Below are positions 34,717 through 46,201 of a stretch of DNA of 64,000 bases, one piece after another. A program made the translations under genes and the position numbers. The DNA is from Acidaminococcus fermentans DSM 20731 (lineage in GTDB: Bacteria; Bacillota; Negativicutes; Acidaminococcales; Acidaminococcaceae). The notes under the pieces were generated by a model. That model was not told where the DNA came from, ran no database searches, and was given only the letters and a program-made list of their open reading frames with translations. Each line of letters begins with the position of its first letter. Positions within the stretch are counted from its first letter, which is position 1. The DNA lies in the NCBI RefSeq assembly GCF_000025305.1, contig NC_013740.1, forward strand, positions 248,001 through 312,000. The letters run 5' to 3'.

Positions 34717-34785
34717 AGCAAACAGAGGCATTGGAAATGCCTTTCCGTTGTCAACAAACTACAAGTGACTGATGGAGGTGCCATT

Positions 34786-35691
34786 ATGGCGAAAAAATTG
34801 GTTGAATTTGTTCCGAATTTCAGTGAAGGCCGGGATAAGGAAAAGGTTGAAAAGATCGTTGATGAAGCCCGCAAAATCAAAGGACTGAAGATCCTGGATT
34901 ATTCCAGCGATGCCGACCACAACCGTTCTGTTGTAACCATCATCGGCTCTCCTGAAGCGGTTACCGAAGCAGCCATCAATATGGCGAAAGTCGCCATCCA
35001 GCTGATCGACATGCGGACCCACCATGGGGCTCATCCCCGGTTTGGTGCGGTGGACGTGGTTCCCTTCACTCCCGTTATGGGCGTGACAATGGACGAATGC
35101 GTGGCCATTGCCAATGCGGTGGGCAAGGCATACGGTGAAATGGGCATCCCCGTTTATCTGTATGAAGACGCCTGCACTAAGGAAGCCCGCCGGAACCTGG
35201 CTGCCGTGCGGAAAGGCCAGTACGAAGGTTTCTTTGAAAAGATCAAGGATCCGGAATGGAAACCGGATTACGGCCCTGCGGTCATGAATGAAAAATCCGG
35301 CTGCTCTGCCGTGGGCGCCCGGGTTCCCCTGGTGGCCTTCAACGTGAACCTGGACTGCAGCGACAAGGCTGTGGCCGATGCCATTGCCAAAAAGGTCCGG
35401 AACATCGGCGGCGGTCTCCACTATGTCAAGGCCATGGGCGTAAAACTGGAAGAACGGAACCAGGTACAGGTTTCCATGAACCTGGTGAACTACGAAAAAT
35501 CCGCCGTGTACCAGGCTTTTGAAATGATCAAGATGGAAGCCCGCCGGTACGGCGTCAATGTAGTGGGCAGTGAAGTCATCGGGACCGTTCCCATGAAGGC
35601 TCTGCTGATGGCTGCGGAATACTATCTGCAGATCGAAAACTTCAATCTGGACGAAATCCTGGAAAAACGGCTGCTGGAACTGGAAGAATAA
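34786..35691 (+). CDS. ftcD: Glutamate formimidoyltransferase
   Basis: This 301-residue enzyme moves the formimino group from formiminoglutamate to tetrahydrofolate in histidine breakdown. The start is the ATG after GGAGGTG (MAKKLVEFVPNFSEGRD). Family motifs are DADHNRSVVTI-like SSDADHNRSVVTIIGSP, TKVAIQLIDMRTHHGAHPRFGAVDVVPF (catalytic His region) and GARVPLVAFNVNL. It is the stand-alone transferase; the deaminase partner is the separate fchA. Codon use is slightly less GC-biased than in neighbours, as in highly expressed genes. It starts the ftcD-fhs-fchA operon. Confidence 0.95.
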   Translation: MAKKLVEFVPNFSEGRDKEKVEKIVDEARKIKGLKILDYSSDADHNRSVVTIIGSPEAVTEAAINMAKVAIQLIDMRTHHGAHPRFGAVDVVPFTPVMGVTMDECVAIANAVGKAYGEMGIPVYLYEDACTKEARRNLAAVRKGQYEGFFEKIKDPEWKPDYGPAVMNEKSGCSAVGARVPLVAFNVNLDCSDKAVADAIAKKVRNIGGGLHYVKAMGVKLEERNQVQVSMNLVNYEKSAVYQAFEMIKMEARRYGVNVVGSEVIGTVPMKALLMAAEYYLQIENFNLDEILEKRLLELEE

Positions 35692-37408: not shown

Positions 37409-38029
37409 ATGGAATTGCGCAAACTGACTGTGGAAGGATTCATCAATGAAACGGCGTCTTCTTCTCCGGCTCCCGGAGGGGGCAGCATCGCGGCCCTGAA
37501 CGCATCTTCTTCCGCCGCCCTCATTGCCATGGTGGCCAACCTGACTCTGGGCAAGGAAAAATATGCGGCTGTGGAAGGAGACATGAAGGAAGTGGCTGCC
37601 AAAGCCACTGCCCTGAAGGATGATTTCCTGGCCCTCATCGATGAGGACAGCAATGCCTTCAATAAAATCATGGCTGCCTTTAAAATGCCCAAGGATACGG
37701 ACGAGGCCAAAAAGGCCCGGAGTGCCGCCATCCAGGATGCCACCAAGGGCGCGGCCCTGGTTCCCTTCAAGGTGGGCCAGAAGGCCAACGAACTATTCGC
37801 TCTGGCGGAAACCGTCATCACCAAAGGCAATCAGAATGCCATCACTGATGGGGCAGTAGCCGCCATGAATGCGCGGGCTGCCGTACGGGGAGCCTTCCTC
37901 AATGTGAAGATCAACCTGGGGAGCATCAAGGATGCCCTGTTCGTGGAAGATCTGAAAAAGAGAATGGCGGAAATCGAAAAAGAGGTGGATGCCCGGGAAA
38001 AGGCACTGCTGGATCAGGTGAAGCTGTAA
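37409..38029 (+). CDS. fchA: Formimidoyl-THF cyclodeaminase
   Basis: This 206-residue helical protein releases ammonia from 5-formimino-THF and yields 5,10-methenyl-THF. FINETASSSPAPGGGSIAALNASSSAALIAMVANLT is the diagnostic N-terminal motif, and DEDSNAFNKIMAAFKMPKDTDEAKKAR is the second conserved block. It completes the three-gene one-carbon module. Its expected terminator is represented only by the left half (AAGGGGCTGTGAAATAAT); foreign DNA with a transposase follows. Confidence 0.94.
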   Translation: MELRKLTVEGFINETASSSPAPGGGSIAALNASSSAALIAMVANLTLGKEKYAAVEGDMKEVAAKATALKDDFLALIDEDSNAFNKIMAAFKMPKDTDEAKKARSAAIQDATKGAALVPFKVGQKANELFALAETVITKGNQNAITDGAVAAMNARAAVRGAFLNVKINLGSIKDALFVEDLKKRMAEIEKEVDAREKALLDQVKL

Positions 38030-38061
38030 AAGAAGGGGCTGTGAAATAATAGCTCCATGAA

Positions 38062-38109
38062 AACGAAAGGGACTTTCGATTCTTGTGAATCGAAAGTCCT
38101 TTTTCGTGT
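38062..38109 (+). terminator. Hairpin in front of the transposase gene
   Basis: ACTTTCGATTC/GAATCGAAAGT extended by AACGAAAGG/CCTTTTTCGTGTT. Insertion sequences often carry such a hairpin to block transcription from outside; it could also end the fchA operon. Confidence 0.7.
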
Positions 38110-38124
38110 TAGAATTTAACTGCT

Positions 38125-39702
38125 ATGAAAAACCTAACTGTGTATTATGGTACTCCCAAACAGGGAATTTTACCAGCATTTTTTTCTGAGTGCCTGGATA
38201 TCACAGATCCGGTTTTCACATTTGACAGATTTATGGAGGAAATCGATTTACGCAAATATCTGAGCAAACTTCCTGCTCATGAGTTGGGAAGAATCAGATA
38301 TAATCCCATCAATATGTTGAAAACGGTTCTGTTCGGGTTTATGGATGAAGGATGCATCTCTCTCAGAAAGCTGGAAGACAATTGCAAAGTCAATATCCGC
38401 TATAAATACCTTATGGACGGTAAACACCCGTCCTATCGGACTTTCGGATATTTCATCAATACTGTCCTGATGAATCAAGCTGAATCGCTCTTTTATGAAA
38501 TTACCCAAGAAATCATCACCAAAGAGCATGTGGACCTGGACCACCTCTATATCGATGGCTCCAAATTCGAAGCCAATGCCAACAAATACTCCTGGGTCTG
38601 GAAAAAAGGTACGGAGAAATCGAGATTCCGGCTGTTTGCCAAAATCTCAGCACTCCTGGAAGAAATCAACGAGATGCTGAGCTGTGGTGGACTGAAAGCC
38701 GAAAACAATTCAGAATATGCTCCTGAATATCTGGAGCTCATCCTGAGCAAACTTCACGAAATCTGGGAACTGGACGAGGAAAGATTTGCCCATGGCAAAG
38801 GACACCATAAGAGTCCGGAACAGCGGAATTACGAAAAACTAAAAGTGTATCTGCAGAAACTTAAGGAATATGGAAAGAAATTGAGTATCTGTGGAGAGAA
38901 TCGTAATAGCTATTCTAAAACGGATCATTCAGCTACGTTTATGCGGATTAAGAGAGACTACATGGGAAACGACCAGCTGCTGCCGGCATATAACGTCCAA
39001 GTTGGCATAGCTGATGAATACATAGCGGTCCTTGACGTAAACCAGTACAGATCAGATATGGACTGCTTCGTTCCCCTTCTGGAAAAGTTTTATGAGCACC
39101 ATGGGATCTATCCGAAATATCCAGTAGCTGACGCAGGGTATGGTTCATTCAATAACTATCTGTACTGCAGCGAACATGGGATGGAAGCCTGTATGAAATT
39201 CCCCATGTTCTTCAAAGAAACGACGGACAAGAAGTATCACGAGGACCCATTCCGTGCGGTTAATTTCAAGACGACGGTTGATGGAGCGTTGCTCTGTCCC
39301 AATGGAAAGAAGTTCAAATTCGTCTACAGGAAAAACATTCAAGGCAACCAATATGGCCGTCAGGAAGAAATCTATGAATGTGAGGACTGCAATGGCTGTC
39401 CTTATGCAGAACGTTGCAAGAAAACACCTCATAACAGACGGATCAGCCTGAATCGTGAACTTACAAAGGTCCATGCTGACGTCATCGGACGATTGACAGA
39501 TACCCGCGGATTTCTGCTGAGAAGGAACCGTGCTATCCAGGCAGAAGGTACTTTCGGAGTGATGAAGAACGATCGGGAATATGACCGGATTGTCCGAAGA
39601 GGCATGGATTCAGTGAAAATGGAAGTTTTTCTGGTTTCTATTGGCTTCAACCTGTACAAATACCATAGGAAGCAGCAGGCACATATGGATATGGCAGCTT
39701 AA
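38125..39702 (+). mobile_element. IS1182-type transposase
   Basis: This 525-residue DDE transposase has an N-terminal domain with FDRFMEEIDLRKYLSK and YNPINMLKTVLFGFMDEGCISLRKLEDNCKVNIRYKYLMDGKHPSYRTF, the first catalytic Asp in LDHLYIDGSKFEANANKYSWVWKK, the second in YPVADAGYGSFNNYLYC, a zinc-like cluster CEDCNGCPYAERC, and the Glu in AEGTFGVMKNDREYDR. It looks intact. Codon use and lower GC differ sharply from neighbours, a sign of transfer. I could not define convincing terminal inverted repeats, so the element borders are open. Confidence 0.88.
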
Positions 39703-39794
39703 TTTTAAAAAGCTGAGTTTTGGGGGAAAGGGGGAAAGGGGGAAGTATACCCTTTTTCTCTTGCTTTTTACTGCCAGGAGTAAAAAGAGACAAC

Positions 39795-39846
39795 AAAAAA
39801 GGAGCTGTGAAGAAATGAATCCTCATTTCTTCACAGCCCCTTTTTT
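39795..39846. terminator. Terminator of the sigma-54 regulator remnant, CTGTGAA family
   Basis: AAAAAAGGAGCTGTGAAGAAATGA with complement and T6 on the plus strand, A6 at the other end. The 92 bp between it and the transposase hold only G- and A-rich filler. Confidence 0.85.
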
Positions 39847-40582
39847 ATACTTCAATCCCATACTTCCTTATCCGGTACTGGAGGTTCTGGCGCTGGAGTC
39901 CCAGTTCTTTGGCGGTGCGGGTAATGTTTCCCTGGTTCCGGCGGAGGGCTTCTTCCAGCAGGTACATTTCATAGCTGGCCATTTTTTCTCCCAGGGTCTC
40001 TCCCGGCATGTCCGGGGGCGGATCCTGGGATTTTTTGCGGGACCGGGCCAGGCCCCCCGCTGGGGATTCCTTTGCCGGAGATTCCGTCCAGGGAGCCCGG
40101 ATAAAATCCGGCAGCAGGTCGTCGGTGAGCTCGCTGCCTTCGGACAGGTTCATGGCATGGTCCAGCACATGGAACAATTCCCGGACATTTCCCGGCCAGC
40201 TGTACTGCTGGAGCTGCCACAGGGCTTTGGGGGCGATCCGGGTCAGGGGATAGGCGTACCGGCTGGCACAGCGGCGGAGATAGGCGTGGCACAGGGGCTC
40301 CAGGTCATCGATCCGGTCCCGGAGGGGCGGGAGCTGGAGCACCAGGGTGGCCAGCCGGTAAAACAGGTCTTCCCGGATCTTTCCGGTCCGGACCAGCTGG
40401 AAGGGATCCCGGTTGCAGGTGGAGATCACCCGCACATCCACTTCCCGTTCCCGGGTTTCTCCCACCCGGCGGAAAACCCCTTCCTGGAGGACCCGGAGGA
40501 GTTTGGCCTGCATGGCCGGGCTCATGGAGTTCAGCTCGTCCAAAAACAGGGTTCCTTCATGGGCCGCTTCCAGCAGGGCCCC
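39846..40582 (-). pseudogene. Sigma-54-dependent regulator, N-terminal half deleted
   Basis: The remnant keeps the second half of the AAA+ domain: Walker B GTLFLDELNSMS, LLRVLQEGVFRRVGETREREVDVRVISTCN, the R-finger region REDLFYRLATLVLQLPPLRDR, WPGNVREL, and a Fis-type helix-turn-helix at the C-terminus (NQGNITRTAKELGLQRQNLQYRIRKYGI). The sensor domain, Walker A and the GAFTGA sigma-54 contact are absent. The homology stops at about 40582, where a BCCT transporter fragment begins on the opposite strand. Without these parts it cannot activate transcription. It resembles RocR/BkdR-type activators of amino-acid catabolism and may have controlled the genes to its right. Confidence 0.85.
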
Positions 40583-41473
40583 GGGGTCTGGTTCATCCTG
40601 ACGGCTGTGATTACCGCCACTTTCACTGTGGCTTCCGTACTGGGCATCGACAAGGGCATCAAATGGCTGGCCAACCTGACCACCAAAATCTTCTATGCCC
40701 TGCTGCTCCTGCTGATTGTCATCGGTCCCACAGTCTACATCCTGAACCTCACCAATGTGGGGATGGGGTACTGGCTGGACCGGTTCTGGACCTGGGCCCT
40801 GGACCCCTATCTGGCGGAAGGAAAGGCCCTGGTCACCTGGTGGACCATGTATGACTGGGCCATCTGGATCGCCTATGCCCCTCTTATGGGAATCTTCTTC
40901 GCCATCATCGCCTACGGGCGTACCATCAAACAGTTCCTGCTGATCAACTGGATCCTGCCGGCGGTATTCGGTCTGGTCTGGTTCTCCGTCTGGGGCGGTA
41001 CCGCTCTCCAGTGGCAGATGGATGGCCGGGTGGACATTGTCCAGGCCATCAAGGCCGGGGGCGCCGTGGCCGGTATCTGGACCTTCCTCCAGGCCATTCC
41101 CTTTGGCGGCGTACTGATTCCGGTGATCATCATCACCCTGATCGCGGCATTTTCCACCACGGCGGACACCATGTCCACCACCATTGCAGCCCTGTGCACC
41201 AAAGGGGCCAAACATGATGAAGAACCGGCCCTTTGGCAGAAAGTGGTCTGGGGCGTTTCCATCGGTGCCATTGCGGCCATCATGGTGGCCTTTGGCGGCG
41301 GCGCCCAGGGGGTCGACGGGGTGAAGTTCCTGGCGGCCTGCGGGGGCTTTGTGGTCCTGGCCATCTTCATCCTCCAGGTGGCGGCTGCGGTGAAGGTGTT
41401 CTTTATGGACAAGGAAACCAAAAAGGACATTGTGGACAGTGAAGATCTGATCGAAACACCGGAAGGGAAGTGA
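40583..41473 (+). pseudogene. BCCT family betaine/carnitine-type transporter, N-terminal half deleted
   Basis: Only the C-terminal half remains, beginning at VWFILTAVITATFTVASVLGIDKGIKWLANLT, about residue 235 of a normal BCCT protein of 500-odd residues. Following segments include the BCCT signature area WWTMYDWAIWIAYAPLMGIFFAIIAYGRTIKQF and STTADTMSTTIAAL. BCCT carriers move compounds with a trimethylammonium group, such as betaine, carnitine, choline or ergothioneine-like betaines. The frame upstream stays open only as antisense of the regulator remnant. It ends 4 bp before the lyase gene, so the two were one operon. Confidence 0.87.
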
Positions 41474-41477
41474 GCCC

Positions 41478-43007
41478 ATGGCTGGGACAATTACGCTGGG
41501 ACCAAAGATCGGTCTGGAGGATTTCATGGCGGTGGTCCGTTTCCATGCCCCGGTGGAATTTTCTCCGGAATATTGTGAACGGGTGAACCGTTCCCGGGCG
41601 CTGGTGGAAAAATGGGTGGAAGAGGAAAAAGTCATGTACGGGGTCACCACCGGGTTCGGGGCCCTGTGCACCAAAGCCATCAGTAAGGAAGAAACGGCAA
41701 AACTTCAGGAAAACATCATCCTGTCCCATTCCGTTTCCGTAGGGAAGCCGCTGCCGGAAGAGGCGGTCCGGGGAACGCTGCTGATGATGCTCCAGAACCT
41801 GGGGCAGGGATACAGCGGTGTCCGGCTGGAAGTGCTGGAACAGATCCGGCAGTTCCTGAACCGGGGTATCACCCCCTGGGCTCCGGGGGACGGCAGTGTA
41901 GGGTATCTGAGTCCGGAGGCCCATATGGCCCTGGTGCTGACCGGCCTGGGAAAAGCCTGGTATCAGGGGCAGCTGCTGGAAGGCCGGGAGGCCCTGGAAA
42001 AAGCCGGCCTTGCTCCCCTGGCCCTGGCCTCCAAGGAAGGGCTGGCTCTGGTATCCGGCACCACTTCCCCCACGGCCCTGGGTGCCATCGGGCTCTATGA
42101 CATGCTCCAGGCGGCCCGGTCCGCCGATGTGGTGGGGGCTATGAGCCTGGAGATCCTCCAGGGGGTCATGAATGCCTTCGACCCCCGGGTGATGGCGGTC
42201 CGGCCCCATCCGGATCAGGCCAAAGCGGCGGAAAACGTCCGGAACCTGCTGGCCGATTCCCAGGTGATCGCCGCCGCAAAAGGCAGCCGGGTCCAGGATG
42301 CCCTGTCCCTCCGCTGCATCCCCCAGCTCCATGGAGCGGCCCGGAAGACCCTGGAAGATGCCCGGAAAACCCTGGAAATCGAAATGAATTCCTGCTGCGA
42401 CAACCCCATCCTGTGGCCAGAACCCGGGAATGAAGAGGTGATTTCCGCCTGCAACGCGGATTCCGCCTATGTGGGGATCGCCATGGATGGGTCCTGTATG
42501 GCGGCCACCATGCTGGCCAAAATGTCCGAACGGCGAAACAACCGGCTCATTGACGGAAATCTGTCCGGCTGTCCCTGGTTCCTGATCCAGAACCCGGGGC
42601 TCAATTCCGGGGTGATGATTCCTCAGTACACCCAGGCGGGGCTGCTGAACCAGATGCGGATCCTGTGCACGCCGGCAGTGATCGACAATACCCCCACCTG
42701 CGGGAACCAGGAAGATTATGTGGCCATGGGATACAATGCGGCCAAAAAATCCCTGGCGGTGGCGGAAAAACTGGAATACATCCTGGCCATCGAGCTGCTG
42801 TCCGTCTATGAAGCCCAGCCCTTTGTGGACGGCAGGCTCCGGCGGAGCAGCGCCAGCCGGCAGGTGCTGACGGAAATCAGCAAAGAAGTGCCGGAAATGA
42901 AAGAAGACATGTACCTGTATCCTCACATTGAATTCCTCCGCCGGAAGATCCTTGACGGAAGCCTGGTCCGGTGGGCGGAAACAGGAATGGGAAAAAAACT
43001 GGTGTGA
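41478..43007 (+). CDS. HAL/PAL-fold lyase without MIO cofactor, candidate ergothionase
   Basis: This 509-residue protein is related along its length to histidine ammonia-lyase: YGVTTGFGALCTKAISKEETAKLQENII, LVSGTTSPTALGAIGLYDML, VQDALSLRCIPQLHGAARKTLE, NSCCDNPILWPE and NQEDYVAMGYNAAKKSL. The segment that forms the MIO electrophile differs: true HutH has GSLG-ASG-DLAPLAHM (present in the second copy at 44642), this protein has GSVG-YLSPEAHM, an exact loss of Ala-Ser-Gly plus Asp to Tyr. It cannot form MIO. Known MIO-less members include ergothionase, which eliminates trimethylamine from ergothioneine. The BCCT transporter remnant directly upstream fits a trimethylammonium substrate. Fold and missing triad are seen; substrate is inference. 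Confidence 0.8.
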   Translation: MAGTITLGPKIGLEDFMAVVRFHAPVEFSPEYCERVNRSRALVEKWVEEEKVMYGVTTGFGALCTKAISKEETAKLQENIILSHSVSVGKPLPEEAVRGTLLMMLQNLGQGYSGVRLEVLEQIRQFLNRGITPWAPGDGSVGYLSPEAHMALVLTGLGKAWYQGQLLEGREALEKAGLAPLALASKEGLALVSGTTSPTALGAIGLYDMLQAARSADVVGAMSLEILQGVMNAFDPRVMAVRPHPDQAKAAENVRNLLADSQVIAAAKGSRVQDALSLRCIPQLHGAARKTLEDARKTLEIEMNSCCDNPILWPEPGNEEVISACNADSAYVGIAMDGSCMAATMLAKMSERRNNRLIDGNLSGCPWFLIQNPGLNSGVMIPQYTQAGLLNQMRILCTPAVIDNTPTCGNQEDYVAMGYNAAKKSLAVAEKLEYILAIELLSVYEAQPFVDGRLRRSSASRQVLTEISKEVPEMKEDMYLYPHIEFLRRKILDGSLVRWAETGMGKKLV

Positions 43008-43047: not shown

Positions 43048-43265
43048 GTCCATAAAACGTCCCCTGCTTTAGTGCAATACTGGAATAAAAAACGACAAAG
43101 TATACTGTATACAATAAAAAGAAAATTCTAAATTATGTCCTGGATGAAAACTTATTTGACATTCTTCTGACATTTTAAGGGTACAATGGACCCGTAAGAC
43201 AAAGGGGATTGCGCAGGAATCCCCGCAAACGGAAAAAAGTGAATAAGAAAAGGAGTGATCAATGT

Positions 43266-44570
43266 ATGGAAATCTTAACCAACCCCATCGTCGTCTCCGT
43301 AATTGTCATGTCCGTCTTGTGCCTGCTCAAGATGAACGTACTGTTTGCCATCCTGGTGGCAGCCATTGTGGCCGGATCTACCGGCGGCCTGGCCATTGAC
43401 AAGACGGTGAGCATCCTCATCGGCGGGATGGGCGGCAACTCAGAAACGGCTCTGAGCTACATCCTGCTGGGGACCCTGGCAGTCGCCATCGGACGGTCCG
43501 GTGTGGCAGACATCGCAGCACGGAAAATCACCAAGGTCGTGGGCACCAAAAAAGCGGCCTTCGTATTCCTGATCGCTTTCGTGTCCTGCTTCTCCCAGAA
43601 CCTGATCCCTGTGCACATCGCATTCATCCCTATCCTGATTCCCCCTCTGCTGGTTGTGATGAACCACATGAAACTGGACCGGAGAGCCGTGGCCTGCGCA
43701 CTGACCTTCGGGCTGAAAGCACCGTATGTTTCCCTTCCTGTTGGGTTCGGGCTGCTGTTCATGACCATCATCAAGGATCAGATGGTGGCCAACAACGTGC
43801 AGGTTTCCATCAGTGACATTTCCTCTGTTATGTGGATCGGCGGCGCCTCCATGCTGGTGGGCCTGATCCTTTCTACCATTTTCTACAGCCGTGACCGGGA
43901 ATACAAGGACCTGCCCATTATGGGCCAGGACGAAAAGGCTGGAGAAACCGAAATGAACGCGGACTGCTGGAAGGCCCTGGCCGGTGCCGTGGCAGCCTTC
44001 GTGGCCCAGCTGTACTTCAAATCCCTGCCCATCGGTGCCATGTGCGGCCTTCTGGTGATGCTGGCCACCGGCGCCATCAAATGGAACAAGATGGATGATA
44101 TGGTGGATGGGGGCGTAAAGATGATGGGCTTCATTGCCTTCGTCATGCTGGTGGCTGCCGGCTACGCCAATGTGCTCCGGGAAACCCACTCTGTGGAAGC
44201 CCTGGTCATGGCCACCACTGCCGTCATTAACACCAAACTCAGCGGGGCTATCCTGATGCTGGCTGTGGGCCTCCTGATCACCATGGGTATCGGGACTTCC
44301 TTCGGGACCATCCCTGTGGTGGCTTCCATTTACATCCCCATGGGCCTGAAACTGGGCTTTGGCATCCCTGCCATCATCCTGCTGATCGGGATTGCCGCAG
44401 CACTGGGCGATGCCGGATCTCCTGCTTCCGACTCCACCCTGGGGCCCACTTCGGGGCTGAATGCGGACGGGCAGCACAACCACATCTGGGATACCTGTGT
44501 ACCCACCTTCATCTTCTTCGATGTGACCCTGTTCATCGGCGGCGTGATCGGCGCCATGATCCTGGGCTAA
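43266..44570 (+). CDS. YuiF-type transporter (Na+/H+ antiporter-like), probable histidine permease
   Basis: This 434-residue membrane protein has about eleven hydrophobic segments. The start is at MEILTNPIVVSV, 11 bases after AAGGAG. LLGTLAVAIGRSGVADIAARKI, SCFSQNLIPVHIAFIPILIPPLL, LGDAGSPASDSTLGPTSGLNADGQHNHIWDTCVPTF are typical of the YuiF / NhaC-related group. Genes of this kind often accompany hutH and are annotated as histidine transporters. Adjacent hutH (72 bp downstream) supports histidine import. A GGGGATT/AATCCCC hairpin lies in the leader at 43204-43224. Confidence 0.75.
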   Translation: MEILTNPIVVSVIVMSVLCLLKMNVLFAILVAAIVAGSTGGLAIDKTVSILIGGMGGNSETALSYILLGTLAVAIGRSGVADIAARKITKVVGTKKAAFVFLIAFVSCFSQNLIPVHIAFIPILIPPLLVVMNHMKLDRRAVACALTFGLKAPYVSLPVGFGLLFMTIIKDQMVANNVQVSISDISSVMWIGGASMLVGLILSTIFYSRDREYKDLPIMGQDEKAGETEMNADCWKALAGAVAAFVAQLYFKSLPIGAMCGLLVMLATGAIKWNKMDDMVDGGVKMMGFIAFVMLVAAGYANVLRETHSVEALVMATTAVINTKLSGAILMLAVGLLITMGIGTSFGTIPVVASIYIPMGLKLGFGIPAIILLIGIAAALGDAGSPASDSTLGPTSGLNADGQHNHIWDTCVPTFIFFDVTLFIGGVIGAMILG

Positions 44571-44641: not shown

Positions 44642-46201
44642 ATGCTGAAAGACGTAAAAGCCATCAAAGAAGTTGTCCTGAACGGAAATGACCTGACGCT
44701 GGATCAGCTGATCGCCGTCAGCCGCTATAATGCCAAACTGTCCTTCGACCCGGATGCTGTGGACCGGATCAAGGCTTCCCGGGCTCTCATCGATGACATT
44801 GTGAACAGTGACCGTGTGGTTTACGGGGTCACCACCGGATTCGGGTCCCTGTGCCGGGTCCATATTTCCAAAGAAGACTGTGCCCAGCTCCAGGAAAACC
44901 TGATCCGTACCCATTCCTGCGGCTATGGCAAACCTCTCAGCCGGGAAGTGACCCGGGCTGCCATGACCATCCGGGCCAACGCCCTGGTGAAAGGGTATTC
45001 CGGCATCCGGCTGTCCACCCTGCAGACCCTGGTGGATATGATCAACAAGGGTGTCCATCCCTACATTCCGGAAAAAGGCTCCTTGGGGGCTTCCGGTGAC
45101 CTGGCACCTTTGGCCCATATGGTCCTGCCCATGCTGGGTCTGGGGGATGCGGAATACCAGGGCACGGTAATGCCCGGCAAGGAAGCCATGGAAAGAGCCG
45201 GGATCCCCATTATCCATCTGGAAGCCAAGGAAGGTCTGGCGCTGATCAACGGCACTCCCATCCTGACCGCCATGGGCGTGTTCGCCCTGTGGGAAGGCAT
45301 GTCCCTGCTGAAACAGAGCGATATTGCCGCCGCCCTGTCCATTGAAGCCCAGCGGGGCATCATCGATGCTTTTGATGAACGGCTCCATGTGATCCGTCCT
45401 CACAGAGGCCAGCTGGATACCGCCTACAACCTGCGGAACCTGCTGTCCGGCAGTACCTACGTAACCCATCAGGGCCAGCTGAAAGTGCAGGATGCCTACT
45501 GCCTGCGCTGTGTACCCCAGATCCATGGGGCCAGCAAGGATGCTCTGGGTTTTGTAAAAGACAAAGTGGACATCGAAATCAACGCCGCTACGGACAACCC
45601 CATCGTCCTGCCGGATGGTGACGTGATTTCCGGCGGGAACTTCCACGGCGAACCCATGGCCCTGCCCTTCGACTTCCTGGGCATCGGGATCTCCGAAATC
45701 GCCAACGTTTCCGAACGGCGTCTGGAACGGCTGATCAACAATTCCCTCAGCGGGTTCCCGTCCTTCCTGGTGAAACATTCCGGTCTGAACTCCGGTTTCA
45801 TGATCACCCAATATGCAGCAGCTGCCCTGGTCAGCGAAAACAAGGTGCTGGCCCATCCTGCTTCCGTGGATTCCATTCCTTCCTGCGAAAACCAGGAAGA
45901 CCTGGTCAGCATGGGGGCCCATGCCGCCCGGAAAGCCGGAGAAATCGCCTTCAACGCACGCCGGGTGGTGGCCACGGAAATCCTGGCCGCCTGCCAGGCC
46001 ATCGACCTGCGGGAAGGGGAAGGCTTCAAACTGGGGGCTGGTACCCAGGCTGCCTATGATGCAGTCCGGAAATCCAATGACTTTATCGCTTACGACAAGG
46101 ACATCGAAATGTTCAAGGAACTGGAAAAGATCACCAACCTGGTCCAGGAAGGCGGTATCCTGGATGCCGTAGAAGACAAAGTGGACCTGAAATTCTTCTG
46201 A
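44642..46201 (+). CDS. hutH: Histidine ammonia-lyase
   Basis: This 519-residue enzyme converts histidine to urocanate and ammonia, the first step of histidine fermentation. The MIO-forming triad is intact in GSLGASGDLAPLAHM (residues about 141-155). Also present are YGVTTGFGSLC (catalytic Tyr), the KVQDAYCLRCVPQIHGASKD block, NAATDNPIV, and ENQEDLVSMG with the catalytic Glu. AAGGAGG precedes the ATG. It serves as an internal control for the altered paralog at 41478. Urocanase and imidazolonepropionase must lie elsewhere. Confidence 0.95.
   Translation: MLKDVKAIKEVVLNGNDLTLDQLIAVSRYNAKLSFDPDAVDRIKASRALIDDIVNSDRVVYGVTTGFGSLCRVHISKEDCAQLQENLIRTHSCGYGKPLSREVTRAAMTIRANALVKGYSGIRLSTLQTLVDMINKGVHPYIPEKGSLGASGDLAPLAHMVLPMLGLGDAEYQGTVMPGKEAMERAGIPIIHLEAKEGLALINGTPILTAMGVFALWEGMSLLKQSDIAAALSIEAQRGIIDAFDERLHVIRPHRGQLDTAYNLRNLLSGSTYVTHQGQLKVQDAYCLRCVPQIHGASKDALGFVKDKVDIEINAATDNPIVLPDGDVISGGNFHGEPMALPFDFLGIGISEIANVSERRLERLINNSLSGFPSFLVKHSGLNSGFMITQYAAAALVSENKVLAHPASVDSIPSCENQEDLVSMGAHAARKAGEIAFNARRVVATEILAACQAIDLREGEGFKLGAGTQAAYDAVRKSNDFIAYDKDIEMFKELEKITNLVQEGGILDAVEDKVDLKFF

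Follow-up and report, generated by a model that had tools for sequence, protein, structure and literature searches.

The window analysed here is a stretch of 64,000 nucleotides from the genome of the Acidaminococcus fermentans type strain VR4T, which is one contig of 2,329,769 bases; pig gut is given as the source of this strain (PMC3035267). As comparison locus for the deletion at this site we used L033 from A. fermentans WCA-389-WT-5B, located on the same contig as L072. The features that matter are, in order of position:

34765..35691, + strand: gene for a putative FtcD-like glutamate formimidoyltransferase, a later step of histidine catabolism
37409..38029, + strand: gene for a presumably FchA-like cyclodeaminase
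38042..39831, + strand: insertion not present in L033; it carries a gene for a DDE transposase (38125-39702)
39845..40576, - strand: remnant of a sigma-54-dependent regulator, residues 240-482 of 482, with the N-terminal part of its ATPase domain gone
40574..40576, no strand: deletion junction, at which about 1,690 bp of L033 are gone, among them the stretch between the two genes, which has a sigma-54-type promoter match
40577..41473, + strand: remnant of a BCCT transporter, residues 238-532 of a 532-aa homolog, with the N-terminal part gone
41478..43007, + strand: gene for P0001, a MIO-less HAL-fold lyase and proposed hercynine trimethylamine-lyase (PF00221, alignment, tree)
41892..41927, + strand: codons of GSVGYLSPEAHM, residues 139-150 of P0001, the motif in place of the MIO loop GSLGASGDLAPLAHM
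43209..44570, + strand: gene for a Na+/H+ antiporter family transporter between the lyase and hutH (PF03553 via the L033 homolog)
44642..46201, + strand: canonical hutH with the Ala-Ser-Gly (ASG) of the MIO

P0001 is an intact protein of 509 aa (41478-43007, + strand) in family PF00221, and a genome-wide profile search of A. fermentans VR4T found two proteins of this family, P0001 itself and the product of hutH 1.6 kb downstream. The sequence-only reading had taken P0001 for a HutH paralog with conserved YGVTTGFG and NQED blocks, and this holds, with PF00221 membership, 37.5% identity to HutH at 44642-46201 and both blocks retained. It had also stated, correctly, that the downstream hutH keeps the ASG: the loop of that protein is GSLGASGDLAPLAHM and it scores above both curated HutH cut-offs (TIGR01225 and NF006871). 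Aligned with this loop in P. putida numbering, P0001 reads GSVG-Y---LSPEAHM, three residues shorter and with a single Tyr for Ala-Ser-Gly-Asp, so that the loop, as read from sequence, cannot form MIO. The "exact deletion of Ala-Ser-Gly" described earlier is right in that the MIO-forming residues are gone, but as an exact event it is one among several equivalent alignments. The motif GSVGYL was present in 14/14 sequences of an alignment of P0001 with 13 orthologs from two families, which share 54-92% identity with it. Decay of the lyase was also considered as the cause of the ASG loss and was ruled out, the loop being common to all of these. The earlier opinion that the gene is selected and not decaying agrees with this conservation, with the grouping of the loop type in one clade and with a dN/dS of 0.12 relative to the closest relative.

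P0001 lacks the ASG of a histidine ammonia-lyase and scores below the curated cut-offs, by 36 bits for TIGR01225 (502.7 versus 539.15) and by 0.6 bits for NF006871 (523.4 versus 524). The Pfam and NCBIfam models searched go no further than to call it an aromatic amino acid lyase or a weak HutH, and no ergothionase or hercynine-lyase model was among the NCBIfam matches listed for it. The predicted structure (mean pLDDT 79.9, with low confidence near the active-site loops) found HutH structures as its best Foldseek matches (TM 0.88-0.89), with ergothionase 6s7j as the 16th match (TM 0.84). Predicted structure and alignment together place P0001 among proteins with a HAL fold and no MIO.

Matches to P0001 were found in 53/200 genomes of the class (E 0.001), and the loop motif, together with the score, divides the fetched relatives into three sets: MIO enzymes, a GSVGY type and an ergothionase type. 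For residue comparison in P. putida numbering we used 85 GSVGY sequences, chosen by their loop so that the Tyr there is true by definition, 20 ergothionase-type sequences, chosen by a one-residue gap and including L060 from outside the ergothionase clade, and 49 MIO sequences. Y53, H83, Q277, R283, Q413 and E414 are retained in 85/85 GSVGY sequences; among these HutH residues are the contacts to the carboxylate and the imidazole. Ser195 occurs in 63/85 GSVGY and 15/20 ergothionase-type sequences versus Asn in 48/49 MIO enzymes, and Leu280 in 77/85 and 18/20 versus Tyr in 47/49. Position 330 is acidic in both MIO-less types, being Asp in 85/85 GSVGY sequences and Glu or Asp in 18/20 of the ergothionase type (Glu in 17/20), and is His in 47/49 MIO enzymes. 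The GSVGY proteins further have Ala, Pro or Cys329 (78/85) and Tyr or Phe333 (84/85), and the ergothionase type has Ile413 (17/20). Such a site would suit a substrate that resembles histidine and whose amino group is bulky and cationic. Compared with HutH (TIGR01225; P. putida 1b8f), P0001 has 36-38% identity, the same fold, H83, R283 and E414 and the same downstream pathway; it differs in the absence of ASG and MIO, in N195S, Y280L, F329A, H330D and P333Y, in its scores below the curated HutH cut-offs, and in the betaine carrier genes found near the lyase.

Trees were built from 244 HAL-family ORFs, reduced to 155 by clustering at 90%. In a first tree of 74 representatives with the loop columns excluded, the GSVGY type formed a single clade (support 85, no star, four long rows being included), and L060, a row with the loop gap, was placed outside the ergothionase clade. 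A second tree, with these four long rows removed and 70 left, gave a GSVGY clade of 32 rows containing P0001 (97, starred) and an ergothionase clade of 18 rows (100, starred); the Burkholderia ergothionase BAM63550 was absent from the tree. P0001 thus lies outside the clade of the Treponema denticola enzyme. In an AU test a common MIO-less clade was not rejected, the constrained tree being 13.6 log units better (p 0.81). This p value and the support of 85 with the long rows are the weak points of the split between the clades. The MIO may have been lost once or twice: the free tree parts the clades, but the constrained joint tree is better. The alignment with T. denticola ergothionase and HutH and the HAL tree suggested as a check have yielded a separate MIO-less clade, but not a rejection of its union with the ergothionases. 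Within the GSVGY clade the loop varies (YLSPEAH, YISLEAH, YLGVEGH, YLCAEAH, YLQPGAH). Judged from sequence, these proteins are a separate and broad subfamily of putatively MIO-free HAL-fold enzymes, new within a known type of enzyme.

A contig scan for the lyase gave 370 confirmed stretches, from which the best 80 (57-92%) were kept; these are the top-scoring loci, include near relatives and are not independent. They cover Acidaminococcus, gut Lachnospiraceae and Oscillospiraceae, Clostridium, Geosporobacter, Sporomusa, Bacillaceae and Acinetobacter, and also a Spirochaetes MAG, Deltaproteobacteria and others. In 61 of the best 80 of 370 loci the lyase has a BCCT gene no more than 1.5 kb away, versus 0/45 loci centred on a MIO HutH with about equal flank, and in 58 of the best 80 of 370 this gene is on the same strand, at most 450 bp ahead of the lyase or 900 bp behind it. 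Neither BCCT nor SSF was found in 12 of the best 80 of 370. By this linkage, the reading of P0001 as a HAL-fold lyase that does without MIO, eliminates trimethylamine and is tied to the uptake of betaines, already put forward from the window alone, is well supported for the family; in the window the carrier is a remnant only. BCCT genes adjoin ergothionase-clade genes too, and hence the carrier does not separate the substrates.

A sigma-54 regulator (at least 200 bits) was found in 44 of the best 80 of 370 loci, and a putative rpoN gene in 14 of the best 80 of 370. Among 54 loci with a BCCT gene and enough upstream sequence, sigma-54-type sites (at least 8/10) occur in 27/31 loci with the regulator versus 4/23 without it; at 9/10 they occur in 25/55 loci, with 0.2 expected from shuffles.

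For two ergothionase-type proteins compared with the PDB, 6s7j was the top hit with 476 and 485 bits, the next best being at 204 and 229; identity to 6s7j is 80% for the Acidaminococcus massiliensis protein and 45% for that of Sporomusa sp. KB1. An ergothionase-clade gene occurs together with a GSVGY lyase in both of these, in Clostridium transplantifaecale, in Natroniella acetigena and in others. The pairs are sometimes in tandem. In A. massiliensis, Natroniella and G034 both lyase types are found together, and in C. transplantifaecale, C. peptidivorans and C. pascui they occupy separate loci with a BCCT gene for each. Of the best 80 of 370 lyase loci, 7 contain an ergothionase-type gene, and a Mo hydroxylase large subunit is encoded in 6/7 of these versus 1/73 of those without (p 1.6e-7, for loci that are not independent). 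Beyond the best 80 of 370, Mo hydroxylase lies beside ergothionase-type genes in most further fetched loci; it was not seen in the ergothionase-type loci L036, L196, L203, L215 and L220, and L196 has aconitase X. The presence of Mo hydroxylase in 7 of the best 80 of 370 lyase loci is a point against hercynine, the substrate that we favour below.

The T. denticola ergothionase (6s7j/6s7q) and P0001 have in common the HAL fold, the absence of MIO and Ser195, Leu280 and acidic 330, and for relatives of both a BCCT gene is often near and elimination of trimethylamine is expected. These likenesses, and the Mo hydroxylase genes just mentioned, would fit P0001 being a second, HutH-derived ergothionase that converts ergothioneine to thiourocanate and trimethylamine. 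Against this, P0001 is nearer to HutH (36-38% identity) than to 6s7j (27.4%), its loop is GSVGY--- versus SSIGE-GD, it has Gln413 versus Ile413, and it belongs to a separate clade whose members coexist with ergothionase-clade proteins in the genomes named above; Mo hydroxylase tracks the ergothionase gene and is linked to most ergothionase relatives; VR4T has no ergothionase-clade protein among the two PF00221 proteins found genome-wide; and the linked HutU proteins are urocanases in 8/8 cases tested. On these grounds, membership of P0001 in the ergothionases, the first proposal of the sequence-only reading, was rejected, and ergothioneine as the substrate is unlikely.

Genes hutU and hutI occur within the fetched stretch in 15 of the best 80 of 370 loci, and in 11 of the best 80 of 370 they do so with no MIO hutH in the stretch. 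A script had counted 13 of the latter; L127 and L146, with hutH at or beyond the locus edge, were removed. The 11 loci are:

L088, L092 and L099: Lachnospiraceae
L116 and L117: Sporomusa
L129, L137 and L139: Bacillaceae
L142, L144 and L147: Acinetobacter

L088 additionally carries an ergothionase-type gene, and L092, a locus that lacks an ergothionase gene, has a Mo hydroxylase right after the lyase. Eight HutU proteins were tested, six of them from the 11 loci or from the same locus under another id, and 8/8 were above the urocanate hydratase cut-off of 375 bits (432-451 in anaerobes, 988-1017 in Bacillaceae and Acinetobacter). The models for thiourocanate hydratase (NF058530) and S-methyl-thiourocanate hydratase (NF058531) describe the urocanase fold acting on thio-analogues of urocanate, and their cut-offs were reached by 0/8. 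NF058530 matched in 49 of 369 genomes of the Acinetobacter silvestris class, with 0 above cut-off. Linkage of the lyase to a true urocanase without hutH is thus found in 11 of the best 80 of 370 loci and not at the window locus.

Among all genomes with the lyase that were tested, a urocanase was found in 61/65 (15/15 and 46/50), with none found in 4/50 of the second genome set. These four genomes, and the restriction of hutU and hutI to 15 of the best 80 of 370 loci, are further points against hercynine. PF00221 matches scoring 590 bits or more, the canonical HutH range by a line set after the scores were seen, were present in 61/66 genomes with the lyase. The five without one are Acinetobacter celticus, N. 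acetigena, MAG G257, G243 and G262, and all five have a urocanase; the further PF00221 matches of G243 and G262 are partial. On one contig of N. acetigena lie hutU, ftcD, fchA, hutI, an ergothionase-clade gene and the lyase, with no third PF00221 match.

In A. silvestris the gene order is hutC-hutD-hutU-hutI-hutG-glutamate dehydrogenase (gdh)-lyase-BCCT, with hutC, hutU, hutI and hutG above curated cut-offs and hutD by Pfam match; apart from this row, the region also holds a MIO hutH. A. celticus has a row of genes matching this operon, which contains the sole urocanase found there. Of its proteins, the lyase and the only other PF00221 protein found were run through the model library; no canonical hutH was found in this draft genome, from which contigs <3,000 bases were excluded. 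The second protein has ASG, Gln at the E414 position and its best score with the tyrosine ammonia-lyase model (408 bits), versus 386 bits with the HutH model, whose cut-off is 539. A hut operon that contains the lyase and no hutH, along with the retained H83, R283 and E414, might indicate a MIO-independent histidine ammonia-lyase that substitutes for HutH. We regard this as very improbable, given that ammonia leaves poorly without MIO, that 61/66 lyase genomes also have a PF00221 match in the canonical HutH range, and that a BCCT gene is so near in 61 of the best 80 of 370 loci.

Hercynine is N-alpha-trimethyl-histidine, the histidine betaine and the sulfur-free parent of ergothioneine. In HutH the MIO electrophile is needed to make ammonia leave; trimethylamine is a good leaving group by nature, so that the MIO becomes dispensable. 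We suggest that hercynine would be taken up by the BCCT carrier, that the lyase would convert it to urocanate and trimethylamine, and that the urocanate would then be degraded by HutU, HutI and FtcD or HutG. Hercynine is the simplest substrate because the loci combine a quaternary-amine carrier, the urocanate pathway, HutH-type residues and no MIO. The loss of MIO, these residues, the clade and the linkage to BCCT and hutU/hutI were seen directly, and from them we infer substrate, products, transport and role in vivo. We give the reading of the GSVGY family as a MIO-free hercynine lyase a probability of about 0.68. "A relative acting on hercynine", the second proposal of the sequence-only reading, is accordingly the candidate that fits best. 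The substrate might instead be a different imidazole betaine, such as S-methyl-ergothioneine, ergothioneine sulfonate or hercynine methylated on the ring. Loop variants with differing residues at 195, 280 and 329 suggest several substrates, and two lyases share a locus in 12 of the best 80 of 370; however, the ordinary urocanase and imidazolonepropionase in the operon need unmodified urocanate, in the main subclade at least, and for the family as a whole we think such a substrate improbable, a little more so than ergothioneine.

With hercynine as the substrate of the main subclade, the GSVGY clade could, in a tentative extension that we hold at somewhat less than even odds, be a radiation of MIO-free lyases whose sister subclades use other aromatic or imidazole betaines. 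If true, this radiation would equip gut and soil bacteria with a set of unrecognised pathways that release trimethylamine from betaines in the diet, many of them served by a BCCT or SSF carrier of their own and, in numerous anaerobes, controlled by sigma-54; the lyase would also show how a cofactor is lost when the substrate supplies its own leaving group. Trimethylamine from gut microbes becomes TMAO by oxidation. Which bacteria produce it from ergothioneine-type compounds is debated. Many gut members of the Lachnospiraceae, Oscillospiraceae and Acidaminococcus carry a GSVGY-clade protein, and some of these also have one of the ergothionase clade. A 2026 study using BLAST with the Burkholderia ergothionase reports that the enzyme is not widespread in the gut, and by its own statement leaves divergent homologues out of account (PMC13405746). 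In volunteers given ergothioneine, hercynine is reported to be among the main metabolites (PMC7653990); a pathway dedicated to hercynine would point to one of its fates. By title and start of abstract, no report of a hercynine trimethylamine-lyase was found in the open-licence literature; Maurer 2019, Zhou 2025 and the gut pathway paper in JACS 2025 may describe one.

At the window locus the operon is broken. The gene in front of the lyase had been read as a BCCT transporter, and it turned out to be a remnant: 40583-41473 encodes the C-terminal 295 of ~532 residues, and the BCCT profile covers 220-480 of 485. The missing sequence corresponds to L033 7604-9293, about 1,690 bases that comprise the 5' half of each gene and the sequence between them, and this deletion of ~1.69 kb joined the BCCT remnant to the opposite-strand remnant of the sigma-54 regulator. 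In L033, a sigma-54-type -24/-12 match (8/10) lies inside the missing piece, 77 bp upstream of the BCCT frame. Two sigma-54-like 8/10 matches are left in 40180-41540 (41012, +, and 41210, -; a raw count without shuffle baseline), both within the BCCT remnant. A genome-wide search found no further BCCT in VR4T, and its urocanase gene lies elsewhere, away from the lyase, with hutH near the lyase. Because transporter and regulator are cut down and the promoter region is lost, the lyase gene in VR4T is probably poorly expressed or cryptic. An active pathway in this strain is doubtful, and the link from diet to trimethylamine drawn earlier cannot be claimed as active here, as the adjoining BCCT gene is broken.

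In another Acidaminococcus (G082, locus L050), an in-frame fusion has joined the N-terminal part of the BCCT with the C-terminal part of the lyase. Since this lesion differs from the VR4T deletion, the lyase operon has been damaged at least twice within the genus. The losses in VR4T and the lesion in G082 make it possible, with the balance somewhat against, that the VR4T gene is a non-functional relic of a broken operon; this concerns the strain and is compatible with hercynine as the substrate of the family. The VR4T reading frame is intact, and dN/dS between P0001 and the L033 lyase is 0.121, like that between relatives, although a recent deletion would leave no trace in it. Against L033, dN/dS is 0.027 for the window hutH and 0.035 for the BCCT remnant. 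The lyases of L033 and A. massiliensis gave 0.116, and therefore the lyase evolves faster than its neighbours even where its operon partners are intact.

Two lyases of the GSVGY type, the MIO-less HutH paralogs to which the window's lyase belongs, were found within one locus in 12 of the 80 best lyase loci among 370, and wherever the loops of both partners could be read, they were different variants. The loci concerned are the following:

L070, L073, L090, L093, L095-L098, L110, L115, L118 and L135, each with two GSVGY-type lyases

HutH is a tetramer in which active sites are shared between subunits, and therefore it is possible that the paired lyases form mixed oligomers; a second substrate is also possible. 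In 14 of the same best 80 loci of 370, numbered L068-L147 (for example L076, L077, L091 and L095), a gene that we take to be rpoN, encoding sigma-54 itself, lies close to the lyase, as if the sigma factor had been retained largely for the lyase operon.

Genome G082, also from Acidaminococcus, has a second lesion of the lyase operon besides that in the window: an in-frame fusion (L050:9076-10401) links the N-terminal portion of the BCCT transporter with the C-terminal portion of the lyase. In the window itself, an inserted element that carries a DDE transposase (38042-39831) separates fchA from the truncated regulator; when the two loci were compared, the near relative L033 lacked this element.

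Near the lyase locus of genome G114 we observed three reading frames of 131 aa repeated with a period of 666 bp (L039:5169-6893, minus strand) and a fourth relative at L039:13326-13778; the one tested had no Pfam match.

In the separate ergothionase clade, the lyase at L036:12722-15879 was tested for domains and bears an aconitase-X swivel domain (PF01989) at its N-terminus, and the gene for the aconitase-X large subunit directly precedes it. The gene order is the same at L196:6735-9930, where the lyase is of similar length. This arrangement pairs a MIO-less lyase with part of a dehydratase.

Among other HutH paralogs, a tandem copy adjoining a normal HutH (L188:10085-11677 and L204:4525-6054) has the MIO loop GSLGSSDL, shorter by one residue; in L188 this copy otherwise agrees with HutH at the active-site positions that were compared. 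At L184:1530-10468, Asp replaces H83 (P. putida numbering) in a MIO lyase that is accompanied by a HutI relative and a divergent urocanase, for which the best model was S-methyl-thiourocanate hydratase, at 657 bits and thus below the cut-off of 880. This gene set possibly represents another histidine-analogue pathway.
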